In this document: piece by piece, positions 27,534 through 32,964 of the stretch
Position numbering within the stretch: the stretch's first letter is position 1
How the letters are laid out: each line of letters starts with the position of its first letter
NCBI RefSeq assembly: GCF_009807005.1
Contig: NZ_WUBR01000001.1
Coordinates: forward strand, 1,488,001-1,552,000
Source: Aurantiacibacter rhizosphaerae
Lineage (GTDB): Bacteria > Pseudomonadota > Alphaproteobacteria > Sphingomonadales > Sphingomonadaceae
Direction of reading: 5' to 3'
Length of the DNA stretch: 64,000 bases
The notes under the pieces: model-generated
What the model was told of the DNA's origin: nothing
The model's input: the letters and a program-made list of their open reading frames with translations, nothing else
The model's database searches: none
Made by a program: the position numbers and the translations under genes

Positions 27534-28343
27534 TTATTTCTTCGGCTTGGAAGGTGGCGGCGTGCGCAGGCGAGAGCGATGCGCATCCATATCCAGCACT
27601 TCGCCGGGACCGTTGTCTTCGCCGGAAAGCACGCCAAGCCGGCGCGCGACTTCCTGATAAGCCTCTTCTTCCCCGCCAAGATCGCGGCGGAAGCGGTCCT
27701 TGTCCAGCTTCTCTCCGCTGGTCATGTCCCACAGGCGGCAATTGTCCGGGCTGAATTCATCGGCCAGGATCACGCGGCTGAAATCGCCATCGAAGATGCG
27801 ACCGAATTCCAGCTTGAAATCCACCAGGCGGATGTCGACGGCGGCGAACATGCCGCTCAGGAAATCATTCACGCGGATAGCCATCGCGGCGATATCCTGC
27901 ATCTCTTCATGGCTGGCCCAGTTGAAGCAGGCAATGTGCTCTTCCGCCACCAGCGGATCGCCCAGCGCATCGTCCTTCAGATAATATTCCAGCAGCGTGT
28001 GGGGCAGCATTTCGCCCTCTTCGATGCCGAGACGCTTTGAAATGGAGCCTGCGGCCACATTGCGCACCACCACTTCCAGCGGGATGATTTCCACCTGCCG
28101 CACCAATTGTTCGCGCATGTTCAGGCGGCGGATGAAGTGGGTGGGGATGCCGATGTGCGCCAGCCGGGTGAACACATATTCGCTGATGCGATTGTTGATC
28201 ACGCCCTTGCCGTTGATCGTACCCTTTTTCTCGGCGTTGAAGGCGGTGGCATCATCCTTGAAATACTGGATGATCGTGCCCGGCTCAGGACCTTCGTAAA
28301 GGATCTTGGCCTTGCCTTCGTAGATCTGGCGGCGGCGGGACAT
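27534..28343 (-). CDS. purC: SAICAR synthase
   Basis: Condenses CAIR with aspartate using ATP (step 7 of purine synthesis). 269 residues from ATG 28343, which has AAAGG 8 bases upstream. Seen: [16 protein letters not shown], the substrate loop [25 protein letters not shown] and [17 protein letters not shown]-terminal extension of about 25 residues (ending PPPSKPKK) exceeds the E. coli length of 237. The 5' region is unusual: a promoter-like element and an intrinsic terminator lie within 115 bases upstream. Confidence 0.96.
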
Positions 28344-28364
28344 TGGCGGCACCTTTCAGCAGCG

Positions 28365-28416
28365 AAAAAACGAGCGCCCCGGCGTCGCGAACTGGGTTCG
28401 CGGAGTACCGGGGCGC
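28365..28416 (-). terminator. Intrinsic terminator in the purC leader
   Basis: On the minus strand a two-part stem, GCGCCCCGG/CCGGGGCGC (28374-28382, 28408-28416) with inner CGCGAAC/GTTCGCG (28386-28392, 28396-28402), is followed by six T (28365-28370). It ends 22 bases before the purC ATG. No minus-strand gene lies upstream that it could end. Confidence 0.8.
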
Positions 28417-28428
28417 GTAGAAAGCAGG

Positions 28429-28457
28429 CCTATACACCGAAGTTGGCAGCGGGGCAA
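28429..28457 (-). promoter_or_regulatory. Putative promoter upstream of the purC terminator
   Basis: Minus strand TTGCCC (28452-28457), 17-base spacer, TATAGG (28429-28434). It predicts a start near 28422, so the transcript would enter the terminator hairpin almost at once. Pattern only. Confidence 0.45.
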
Positions 28458-28614
28458 TCGGGCGCAGGCAACAGGTGATTCGCATTGTAGCGCTGGCCCG
28501 GCAGTACAGATTTGCCCGGCATTATCCGGCGAAACCAATCATCTGCGAATTGTTGCAATCCATCCCCGAATTTCATGATAGCTTTTGTAAACCATTAATG
28601 GGGGGACTACCGAA

Positions 28615-29019
28615 ATGAAGAAGTTTGCATTCCTTGCCGTGTTTGCCTTGGCCGCCTGCGGTGAAGCCGAAACCGAGGAGCCGATGATGGAAGAAGAAGT
28701 GGTTGTCGCAGAGCCTGCGGCAGAAGTCGCCATGGCTGCCGATGGCATGCCGATGGCCGGCACTTTCGAAGTGACCAATGCCGAAGGCGAAACCTATACG
28801 CAGGTCGTATCCGACGACGGCACCTACACCAGCACGCGGGCCGACGGTACGGTAACGAATGGCACATGGACTTCCGAACGTCCGGACCAGTGGTGCGGCG
28901 CCGATGAAGGCGAGGAAGTTGAATGCGCGACCGAGACAATCGATGCCGATGGTGTCTGGACGTCTGTTTCCGACAATGATCCGGAAGATGTTTCGACAGT
29001 CGTCCGCGTCGATTCCTGA
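28615..29019 (+). CDS. Small acidic lipoprotein, unknown function
   Basis: 134 residues. Signal MKKFAFLAVFALAACG with lipobox LAAC (Cys15), then a very acidic linker (EAETEEPMMEEE). A beta-rich part with repeated hairpins follows: GTFEVTNAEGETYTQVVSDDGTYTSTRADGTVTNGTW, then two cysteines (WCGADEGEEVECAT) that could pair in the periplasm. No family is recognised; the DGTYT...GTW pattern resembles small periplasmic beta-sandwich proteins of sphingomonads. It is monocistronic, closed by a clear terminator. Confidence 0.8.
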   Translation: MKKFAFLAVFALAACGEAETEEPMMEEEVVVAEPAAEVAMAADGMPMAGTFEVTNAEGETYTQVVSDDGTYTSTRADGTVTNGTWTSERPDQWCGADEGEEVECATETIDADGVWTSVSDNDPEDVSTVVRVDS

Positions 29020-29035
29020 CATTTATCAAGACGAG

Positions 29036-29070
29036 AAAGGGCGCGTCACGAAGGTGGCGCGCCCTTTTCT
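29036..29070 (+). terminator. Rho-independent terminator of the small lipoprotein gene
   Basis: 14-bp stem with one G-T wobble (29036-29049 with 29054-29067, AAAGGGCGCGTCAC), loop GAAG, T-rich 3' side (CCCTTTTCT). It also faces the convergent antiporter gene. Confidence 0.9.
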
Positions 29071-29097: not shown

Positions 29098-30408
29098 CTA
29101 ACCCAGCCCCTTTGGCACGCCGCCTTCTGTTTCGGGCTTATCTTCGCATGGCACTTTCGTGCGTTCGATCACGCGGCCCAGCGTGGCACGCTGCACCAGC
29201 ACGCTGAACAATACCGCGCCGAAGGTTGCAGCCAGCAACAGATCGCGCACCGGGCCTGCGGGCAGGGATAGCGCCAGCGCGATGGAAATGCCGCCGCGAA
29301 GGCCGCCCCACCACAAGACGCCCCACGCGCCTTCCGCCTTTGGCTTGGCCGCGGGCACCACCCTGGTGGACACTGTAACCGCCACGGCGCGGGCAAGCAG
29401 GGTGATGGGAATCGCGGTCAGCATCAGCAGGCTTTCATTCAGCCCGGGAACCAGCACGATCATCTCCAGCCCGATCAGCAGGAAGAGGACGGAATTCAGC
29501 AATTCGTCCACCACTTCCCAGAAGCGGATCACGTAATCGCGGGTAATATCGCTCATGGCGTAGGTGACGCCGTGATTGCCGATTAACAGGCCTGCCACGG
29601 CCATCGCCAGCGGGCCGGAAATGTGCAGCGCGGTGCACAGGGCATAGCCGCCCATCACCACCGCCAGCGTGATCGTCACCTCCAGCGCATATTCATCCAT
29701 CGAACGCATGGCGCGAAAGCCGAGATAGCCGAAGATCGCGCCCACCAGCAGGCCGCCGCCAGCTTCTATCAGGAACAGCCGTGCACCTTCGGCGATGCTG
29801 AATTCGGTGCCCGTTACCGCCGCGCCCAGCAGGATGGCGAACACCACGATGCCCACGCCATCGTTGAACAGGCTTTCGCCCGCAACGCTGGCCTGCAGGC
29901 TTTCGTCCACCTTCTCCTCCTTCAGCACGCCCAGCACGGCCACGGGATCGGTGGGCGCAATCAGCGCGCCGAATACGAAATACCAGATGGGCGCCAGTTC
30001 CAAGCCCAGCAGCAGGCCCAGCCCCCAAGTGAGCAGGCCCACAATCACCGTGGAAAGGATAACGCCCACGGTAGAAAGCAGCAGCACCGGCAGCCAGTCC
30101 GCCTTCAGCCTGTCCAGATCCACATGCAGCGCGCCTGCAAACAGCAGGAAGCTCAGCATTCCCTGCAGCAGCGTGTCTGTAAAGTTCATCTGCTGCAGCA
30201 GCTGCGCTACGGTGTTATCCAGCGTGATGCCGGGAAAAACCGCATTGGCCACCAGCAGGCCAATGGCGGCAAGCGCGCCCATCGCCGTTAACCCGACGAC
30301 ATGCGGCAGTTTTATGAAGTGGTGGTTGAACCAGCCCAGAAAGGCACTGGCCACCACCAGCATGGCAGCAAGATCGAAGGGTGAGAGGCCGGCGCTAGCA
30401 TGTTCCAT
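29098..30408 (-). CDS. CPA1-family Na+/H+ antiporter
   Basis: Inner-membrane cation/proton antiporter of the NhaP/NHE type for pH and Na+ control. 436 residues with about 12 hydrophobic segments and a short cytosolic tail. Characteristic: ALIAPTDPVAVLGVLKEE (about 149-165) and the CPA1 ion-site motif GESLFNDGVGIV with Asn182-Asp183. RGGISIALALSLP near the C-terminus is also typical. Specific ions cannot be deduced. Its start is 32 bases from the 3' end of wrbA, so it may be read from wrbA's transcript. Confidence 0.92.
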   Translation of the reverse strand: MEHASAGLSPFDLAAMLVVASAFLGWFNHHFIKLPHVVGLTAMGALAAIGLLVANAVFPGITLDNTVAQLLQQMNFTDTLLQGMLSFLLFAGALHVDLDRLKADWLPVLLLSTVGVILSTVIVGLLTWGLGLLLGLELAPIWYFVFGALIAPTDPVAVLGVLKEEKVDESLQASVAGESLFNDGVGIVVFAILLGAAVTGTEFSIAEGARLFLIEAGGGLLVGAIFGYLGFRAMRSMDEYALEVTITLAVVMGGYALCTALHISGPLAMAVAGLLIGNHGVTYAMSDITRDYVIRFWEVVDELLNSVLFLLIGLEMIVLVPGLNESLLMLTAIPITLLARAVAVTVSTRVVPAAKPKAEGAWGVLWWGGLRGGISIALALSLPAGPVRDLLLAATFGAVLFSVLVQRATLGRVIERTKVPCEDKPETEGGVPKGLG

Positions 30409-31332: not shown

Positions 31333-32964
31333 ATGGAAGCGATTGGCGATGATCTGGACACGATGAAGCGGGTGCCGCTGGCAGACGATCACGTGGAGAT
31401 GATCTGCGAGATCGGGACGGAACGCTGCTACTCCGCCGGGGACAGCGTGGCCGAAGTCGGCGATGCGATGACAGAATTTCTCTATGTGCTGGAGGGGGAG
31501 ATCGAGATCGTCGATCCCTATACCGGCGGCCGCCTGATGAAGAGCGCGATCGGCCCCACGCAGTTCATGGGCGAGATCGGTTTCCTGAATGCCGGAAGCT
31601 GGACCCTGCCGATGCGCGCGGCGAAGGACACCCGCGTAATTGCCGCACCGCGGGACGAAATGATGGACCTGATGCGGCGCGTGCCCGAACTTTCAGATCA
31701 CATCATCACCGTGTTCGCCGCCCGGCGAAGGCGCACGTTCGAGGAGAACCGCAGTTCCATCAAGCTGATCGGGGCGGACCGTGATCCGGCCGTGCAAAAG
31801 GTGGAAAGCTTCCTGCGGCGCAACCGGGTGCCGTACCACACCTATGATCTGGACGCCTCTGACGAGGAGAGCGTGACGCTATGCCGGCTGGCCGATCATA
31901 CGCCTGCCGTCATCTTCAACCGGGACGAGGTGATAGAAGACCCGACCCCGCGCAAGATCGCGCATCGCCTGGGGCTGGATCTGAATATCTGCGAAGAGAA
32001 CAGCTATGACGTGATCATCGTGGGCGGCGGGCCGGGCGGTGTGGCAGCGGCGGTGTATGCAGGGGCAGAGGGGCTGTGCGCCATGCTGATAGAGGACACG
32101 GCCATCGGCGGGCAGGCCGGCATGTCCAGCCGTATCGAGAACTACATGGGTTTCCCCACCGGCATCTCCGGCTCCGACCTTGTCTATCGCGGAGAGATAC
32201 AGGCGCTGAAATTCGGCACGCGTTTCGTGATGCCGCGCCGCGTGGTGGATTTGTCAAAGCGGGAGGACGGCCAGTTCTGCGTGACGCTCGACGATGATGT
32301 ACAGGTCTGCGCACGCGCCGTGGTGGTGGCCACGGGCGTGCAATACCGCCGCCTGCCGCTTCCACGGCTGGCCGAGTTCGAAGGCGCGGGCGTCTATTAT
32401 GCTGCCACCGACATGGAGGCCCGCTTCTGCCGCAATTGCGATGCCGTGGTGGTGGGCGGCGGCAATTCATCGGGGCAGGCCGCCATGTTCCTCAGCCGCC
32501 ATGCGTCACACGTTCACCTGATCGTGCGCGGGGACAGCCTAGCATCGACGATGAGCGAGTATCTGAGTCACCGGCTGGAGAACGATTCGGCGGTGACGAT
32601 CCATTACGAGACCGAGGTGAGCGCGCTGCATGGGGAAAGCCGTCTATCCGGCGTCACCCTTTCCGGCCCCGATGGCGAGACAGAGGTGCGCACCAACGGA
32701 TTGTTCATCATGATCGGCGCGGAGCCGAACAGCGGCTGGCTGAACGATATGGCAGAGTTGGATGATCGCGGCTTCGTGAAGACGGGCGACGAAGTGGGCG
32801 CGGCCAGCCAGTACGAAACCTCCACGCCCGGCATTTATGCCATCGGCGATGTACGCTCCGGCTCAGTCAAACGCGTGGCCAGCGCCGTGGGGGAAGGGTC
32901 CGTGGTGATATCCGCCGCGTGGAATCACATCGCCGCGCAATTGGATGCCGAAGAAAAGGGCTGA
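31333..32964 (+). CDS. Cyclic-nucleotide-binding, thioredoxin-reductase-like flavoprotein
   Basis: 543 residues with three parts. A cNMP-binding/CRP-like domain covers about 20-140 (FLYVLEGEIEIVDP, GEIGFLNAG). A thioredoxin/glutaredoxin-like segment covers about 145-220 (VESFLRRNRVPYHTYDLD). A thioredoxin-reductase-like FAD/NAD(P) module follows from about 228 (VIIVGGGPGGVAAA, VVVGGGNSSGQAA, IYAIGDV). The CxxC of true thioredoxin reductases is replaced by AATD at 357-360, and a different CRNC (366-369) lies just after it. The architecture is known in many bacteria, but electron acceptor and ligand are not. Shine-Dalgarno GGAAGA precedes ATG 31333. Divergent from wrbA, another quinone/redox flavoprotein. 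Confidence 0.93.
   Translation: MEAIGDDLDTMKRVPLADDHVEMICEIGTERCYSAGDSVAEVGDAMTEFLYVLEGEIEIVDPYTGGRLMKSAIGPTQFMGEIGFLNAGSWTLPMRAAKDTRVIAAPRDEMMDLMRRVPELSDHIITVFAARRRRTFEENRSSIKLIGADRDPAVQKVESFLRRNRVPYHTYDLDASDEESVTLCRLADHTPAVIFNRDEVIEDPTPRKIAHRLGLDLNICEENSYDVIIVGGGPGGVAAAVYAGAEGLCAMLIEDTAIGGQAGMSSRIENYMGFPTGISGSDLVYRGEIQALKFGTRFVMPRRVVDLSKREDGQFCVTLDDDVQVCARAVVVATGVQYRRLPLPRLAEFEGAGVYYAATDMEARFCRNCDAVVVGGGNSSGQAAMFLSRHASHVHLIVRGDSLASTMSEYLSHRLENDSAVTIHYETEVSALHGESRLSGVTLSGPDGETEVRTNGLFIMIGAEPNSGWLNDMAELDDRGFVKTGDEVGAASQYETSTPGIYAIGDVRSGSVKRVASAVGEGSVVISAAWNHIAAQLDAEEKG

Follow-up and report, generated by a model that had tools for sequence, protein, structure and literature searches.

Why should a promoter be followed at once by what looks like an intrinsic terminator, directly in front of purC? 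This is the question raised by the purC leader in the window, that is, the whole 64,000-nucleotide stretch of Aurantiacibacter rhizosphaerae DNA analysed here. The parts of the locus are as follows, with the basis of each in brackets.

28452..28457, minus strand: -35 element TTGCCC of the purC promoter (sequence, and register shared among purC leaders)
28429..28434, minus strand: -10 element TATAGG, without T at position 6 (sequence, and register shared among leaders)
28418..28424, minus strand: predicted transcription start, near 28422 with a 6-nt discriminator (inferred from the Zymomonas discriminator)
28407..28416, minus strand: 5′ arm of the outer stem, GCGCCCCGGT (sequence, RNA fold, stems of relatives)
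28386..28402, minus strand: inner hairpin CGCGAAC, loop CCA, GTTCGCG, with arms at 28402-28396 and 28392-28386 (RNA fold, relatives)
28374..28383, minus strand: 3′ arm of the outer stem, GCCGGGGCGC (sequence, RNA fold, stems of relatives)
28371..28373, minus strand: spacer TCG from stem to U-run (sequence)
28365..28370, minus strand: U-run of six T (sequence, and T positions in relatives)
28352..28357, minus strand: likely ribosome-binding site GAAAGG (by eye)
27534..28343, minus strand: purC (SAICAR synthetase), ATG at 28343-28341 (ORF list, purC searches)
28615..29019, plus strand: small acidic lipoprotein-like gene, divergent from purC (ORF list)
29098-30408, minus strand: antiporter-like gene upstream of purC (ORF list)

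The promoter (28457-28429, minus strand) has a spacer of 17 nt, and the outer stem starts 12 nt past TATAGG. This stem has 10 pairs, one of which is U-G, and the whole hairpin covers 28416-28374. Thus, the long GC stem and six T that the original prediction placed between promoter and purC were found again, both by reading the sequence and by folding. The 96-nt leader RNA folds with -39.3 kcal/mol (z -2.26), and 2 of 200 shuffles were equally good. The U-run and the purC ATG are 21 nt apart, an in-frame GTG lies upstream of the ATG at 28352, and no leader reading frame was seen by eye in this leader. BLAST found a single copy of the leader in the own genome, and the nearest purC genes (93-95 percent) came from Aurantiacibacter, or from uncultured Sphingomonadaceae and Erythrobacter. 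In addition, an automated promoter and terminator scan of the window flagged neither promoter nor stem, because its promoter rule needs T at position 6 of the -10 element and its stem rule accepts loops of 3-8 with T within 2 nt.

Conservation of the leader among purC loci

We collected 138 purC loci. The first 58 came from a sample of 59 genomes of the family, with one genome per genus and the own genus twice; one of the 59 gave no purC match. The other 80 came from named near relatives, which are closely related and not independent. The arms were searched as the regular expression GCYYYGG...YCGGGGY at most 140 nt from purC. We found the arm pattern in 86 of the 138 loci, including 36 of the 58 family loci and 50 of the 80 named ones. 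Conservation of the stem had been named beforehand as a point on which the original prediction could fail, and the prediction survived it. The pattern was also present in L209, from a family genome outside the 138 loci. Among the 36 family members, the only changes in the outer stem were G-U wobbles at three of seven pairs, a table that is partly forced by selection of the members and overstates invariance, since the regular expression fixes most arm bases.

A covariance model (R1) was built from 20 purC leaders. At E <= 0.05, it had a sense match in the leader of 37 of the 58 family loci, of which 20 are the training set and 17 are new among the 38 unused loci. The remaining 13 of the 50 matches listed in this search were antisense or elsewhere.

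Some loci depart from this arrangement. For the named relatives, there were 50 loci with arms, one with a variant stem (L068), 28 with only a tRNA-Phe before purC, and one with neither (L082). The regular expression missed 22 family loci, 4 of which have a tRNA-Phe directly upstream and 18 of which have neither arms nor tRNA-Phe; several of these 18 bear other stems beyond the regular expression (L164 and L176, and by eye L170 and L172). The putative leader is dispensable, being absent from 28 of 80 named loci (those with tRNA-Phe) and, by the regular expression, from 22 of 58 family loci.

Promoter and transcription start

The original prediction described the promoter as TTGCCC-17-TATAGG, and relatives bear it out: TTG-17-TA stands 6-16 nt ahead of the arm, in the same register, in 84 of the 86 hairpin-bearing purC leaders (34 of 36 in the family set). 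As a control, the search was shifted, and TTG-17-TA was found in 0 of 86 leaders at each of seven shifts. Furthermore, a strict arrangement (TTG-17-TA, a strong hairpin at most 16 nt on, then TTT at most 12 nt after the hairpin) occurs once in the 864,000 bases of the own genome, at purC, and 0 times in the reversed sequence. The predicted arrangement of the purC leader is not a product of chance.

According to passages of the published start map of Zymomonas (PMC7566282), mapped starts there follow TTGNNN and TANNNN with a commonest spacer of 17, a commonest discriminator of 6 bp, and a last T that is not conserved. A passage on Novosphingobium aromaticivorans likewise states that more than 80 percent of sigma-70 promoters have no final T in the -10 element (PMC8407463). 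Among mapped alphaproteobacterial starts, most -10 elements end without this T (PMC7566282, PMC8407463), and we consider the putative purC promoter of the window credible. Table 3 of the Zymomonas report puts the purC start 81 nt ahead of the ATG and catalogues it as a constant-expression promoter (PMC7566282). One of our loci, L174, is probably Zymomonas (39 percent GC at the purC locus). Its leader reads TTGCGC-16-TATAAA, and by eye the base 81 nt before the ATG is the seventh after TATAAA. The GCCCCGG hairpin is absent from this purC leader, so the constant expression in Zymomonas is no test of the hairpin element.

Structure of the hairpin and its distance to the U-run

The inner stem varies in sequence, yet 79 of 79 distinct hairpins were at least as stable as the median of their shuffles (mean z -2.0), and 43 of the 79 reached p <= 0.05; these shuffles preserve base composition only. 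Because the inner parts differ in sequence and all still fold at or above the shuffle median, selection is acting on the predicted RNA structure of the inner stem. Why the arm sequence is nearly invariant, more so than pairing needs, is explained only in part, and the regular expression enforces some of it. A DNA operator was considered as well and rejected; the arm-to-arm span of 23 to 63 nt among leaders and the kept inner stem favour RNA.

The position of the U-run relative to the hairpin is nearly fixed. For the 84 of 86 leaders having a TTT, the first TTT comes 5.9 nt after GGGGC (sd 1.4), in 65 of the 86 it comes 6-7 nt after it, and T occupies +8, +9, and +10 in 93, 99, and 84 percent of the 83 distinct leaders. 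In contrast, the distance from the U-run to the ATG is loose (sd 9.7). As the one distance is tight and the other loose, the U-run goes with the hairpin rather than with the ribosome site. Three other roles were tried and dropped. A U-run paired with the Shine-Dalgarno region does not fit the varying distance from U-run to ATG. Pairing of the 3′ arm with the purC start (UCCCG) does not fit either, since codons 2-3 are not the same across species with the stem, for example GCACGT in Qipengyuania. For an RNase E site, purines were not enriched at two bases ahead of the cut in the register examined.

Possible mechanism

We tentatively favour a co-transcriptional hairpin-U module that serves as a promoter-proximal pause or a leaky attenuator on purC, a reading that we regard as possible. 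The purC transcript would start near 28422, and a strong hairpin would form after about six bases. The C-rich left and G-rich right arms of this hairpin resemble terminator-like stems elsewhere in these genomes, and the U-run is kept at a register that would place the RNA 3′ end about 7-9 nt past the hairpin, although most species have bases other than U in between. Such a module should pause RNA polymerase and release part of the polymerases, and this would set the flow into purC. The candidate promoter, the hairpin, the nearly fixed distance to the U-run, the conservation in the family, and the lack of a counterpart at purC in the other families read come directly from the sequences; from them we infer action of the module on RNA polymerase, with some RNA ending near 28365, and a partial effect. 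Action on RNA polymerase is favoured because the hairpin-to-U distance is tight and the U-to-ATG distance loose, the arms are terminator-like, and the register fits. A further step would be a purC-specific minimal control device of Sphingomonadaceae. It would consist of a 5′-terminal hairpin and a U-run whose sub-terminating distance from it is nearly fixed; its read-through would be set by the purine or nucleotide state, via RNA polymerase itself or an RNA-binding factor, with no aptamer, leader peptide, or anti-terminator involved. We consider this extended version decidedly doubtful.

The his and trp leader pauses are stabilised by a hairpin, and their U-rich RNA 3′ end lies about 8-11 nt past it. 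The purC leader resembles them in its hairpin and U-rich 3′ end, with the register read from sequence alone, and differs in that it has no leader peptide to couple with. Promoter-proximal attenuators, which are controlled by a leader peptide, a riboswitch, or a protein, consist of a promoter, a short leader, a hairpin with U-run, and a gene. The purC locus has the same order of parts, including a promoter upstream and a gene downstream of the stem (the loci having been collected via purC). However, it has no visible leader peptide, no Rfam aptamer, and no room for a competing anti-terminator.

The room can be judged from the predicted starts. They leave 0-9 unpaired bases 5′ of the stem, most commonly 3, with 1-6 in 82 of 84 leaders and 6 in the window. 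With so few bases, an alternative anti-terminator fold has no place, as the original prediction had already remarked, and the geometry thus gives neither a mutually exclusive anti-terminator nor a leader peptide.

The same numbers suit a 5′-terminal stabiliser, which would shield the mRNA 5′ end and lengthen the life of the purC mRNA, with the U-run being incidental. The stem begins within a few bases of the predicted start in all 84 promoter-bearing leaders, as in stabilising stem-loops of the ompA type, and structure is kept while the loop sequence is free. Nevertheless, 3-6 unpaired bases are probably more than tight end protection would choose. A fixed U-run and a fixed arm sequence are foreign to the ompA type, and a stabiliser leaves the tight hairpin-to-U distance and the arm sequence unexplained. 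We consider a stabiliser rather unlikely, with some weight left to it.

A regulatory element, in which a protein or a purine-related ligand binds the stem and U-run and controls read-through or translation of purC, is less probable, and we regard it as unlikely. In its favour, 36 of 58 family loci keep the arm sequence and differ in the inner stem, and the 19 best R1 matches in the 59 family genomes all directly precede purC (all 19 belong to the training set); a match away from purC comes up first at rank twenty. However, there are no conserved unpaired bases other than U among the purC leaders, and identical arms are found in intergenic stems away from purC. In addition, Rfam 15 at the gathering threshold found only a tRNA elsewhere in the whole window and nothing at the purC leader; a relaxed scan of 28300-28620 gave three matches with E 0.15 to 2.8, each scoring far under its own threshold.

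Returning to the pause or leaky attenuator, its new aspect would be a leader hairpin with a displaced U-run at purC that has no Rfam match. In the literature searched, which includes parts of PMC7566282, PMC8407463, PMC5770649, and PMC7471390, a purC leader element of sphingomonads is nowhere described. The leader is kept at purC in most sampled family loci (36 of 58), and its defined promoter and geometry make it directly testable. Should the reading prove true, it would reveal the effect that a displaced U-run after a hairpin has on transcription, and it would offer a handle on purC control in sphingomonads.

Comparison with intrinsic terminators

The original prediction called the element an intrinsic terminator. 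For the window alone this stands: the tail TCGTTTTTT has a 3-nt spacer and d = +16, and it passes the classical terminator score (d is our own rendering of a published formula). Across the leaders, the layout is not the canonical one. The stable GC-rich hairpin is there, but the U-tract does not follow the stem immediately. Only 27 of 86 leaders score above zero, the window's among them, and 59 do not. Beyond the last stem pair, the first TTT comes at 4-6 nt in 69 of 86 leaders; the wider classes are 3-7 nt in 79, 0-2 nt in 5, and none in 2, all approximate because stem extension through A-T pairs can absorb T of a terminator. The conserved feature is a predicted hairpin with a U-run at a release or pausing register, not a canonical terminator layout.

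For comparison, the 864 kb of the own genome gave 56 best-scoring hairpins behind genes with TTT within 12 nt, and 32 of the 56 had it at 0-2 nt; the genes came from a crude longest-ORF caller, and the choice of the best-scoring hairpin per gene end biases this set to short offsets. The offset was 0-2 nt in 14 of the 18 hairpins scoring above zero, where score and choice favour short offsets, and in 8 of the 16 below -18 kcal/mol with TTTT. The purC leader shares with intrinsic terminators of the same genomes the GC-rich stem, the C-rich left and G-rich right arms, the U-run, and sometimes identical arms. It differs in that its U-run lies 4-6 nt past the stem in most species, its stem holds an inner hairpin, and it stands between a promoter and a gene. 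A canonical intrinsic terminator that makes a stand-alone RNA, with purC served by another start, is very unlikely. The predicted start and the U-run would indeed yield an RNA of about 55 nt, and the tail of the window suits a terminator. However, besides the offsets and scores, the conserved sequence lies in the stem and not in a loop or seed, and a separate purC start would have just 21 nt between U-run and ATG.

The arm pattern at purC was seen within the family. It occurred in 0 of 15 purC leaders from other families of the order (16 fetched, the start of one of which could not be located), and in 0 of 28 from other families of the class (28 fetched of the 61 purC-bearing genomes outside the family). 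R1 gave a match at E <= 0.001 in 21 of 289 class genomes, three of them in the family, and 0 of the 19 newly fetched loci hold purC. At E <= 0.01, it matched in 80 of 196 order genomes; 17 of these are outside the family and 16 of the 17 have purC, and among the R1 matches listed for these 17 none sits at purC.

We read 20 R1 matches away from purC, two of which are weak ones of the own genome. The first TTT lay 3-7 nt past the extended stem in 10 and at 0-2 nt in 2, while 6 had no TTT within 12 nt and 2 had no stem; these matches were chosen by R1, which favours the displaced-U layout. Displaced U-runs are therefore not peculiar to purC, and this weakens the contrast between purC and terminators. 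For instance, four stems right behind a gene have T at or at most 3 nt from the stem (L189, L190, L193, and L208), five have a displaced T-run like that of purC (L197, L198, L199, L203, and L205), and three matches without T lie inside reading frames (L196, L201, and L202). Two stems with a displaced T-run stand before genes that by eye look like rbfA (L197) and ctaB (L199). The arms CGCCCCGG...CCGGGGCG recur in intergenic stems of sphingomonads (L189, L190, L191, L193, L195, L197, L199, and L208) and are possibly a preferred terminator stem of this group. The own genome has a terminator with such arms behind a gene, GCCCCGGC...GTCGGGGC followed by seven T.

Upstream neighbours of purC

The original prediction also held that no minus-strand gene upstream needs an end. 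Such a gene does exist, namely the antiporter-like gene at 29098-30408. The purC stem is nevertheless not needed for it, because the plus-strand gene 28615-29019 intervenes and a terminator-like stem lies at 29036-29067. This stem (AAAGGGCGCG...CGCGCCCTTT), seen by eye between the convergent lipoprotein-like and antiporter-like genes, appears to be two-way. Among the 70 hairpin-bearing loci with upstream sequence, a relative of the lipoprotein-like gene is upstream of purC in 6, the window's own included. It is highly improbable that the hairpin is the terminator of the gene upstream, with the purC promoter before it by accident. A same-strand antiporter relative does precede purC in 21 of 70 loci, and a tRNA-Phe does in L087, L093, and L133. 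However, the neighbours change from locus to locus and the element remains at purC, 49 of 70 loci show no antiporter within 1.5 kb, and in the window a divergent gene stands between and the antiporter gene has its own terminator-like stem (by eye).

In the 28 named and 4 family loci with tRNA-Phe directly before purC (L072, L080, and L126 among them), the tRNA ends 23-62 nt before the purC ATG, and there is no such hairpin. L087, L093, and L133 hold both, with the tRNA-Phe ahead of the purC promoter and hairpin and its end 128-148 nt from the ATG. ARAGORN gave tRNA-Phe(GAA) in 9 of the 9 loci submitted, and the other calls rest on a sequence pattern. Apparently, a tRNA-purC transcript replaces the purC promoter and hairpin in the tRNA-Phe loci. 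We read this as a tRNA promoter that may have taken over purC, with the leader being lost. These loci are a natural experiment of leader loss.

Farther upstream, the plus strand of the window encodes a thioredoxin-reductase-like protein at 31333-32964, and its translation, judged by eye, has an apparent cyclic-nucleotide-binding-like part at the N-terminus.
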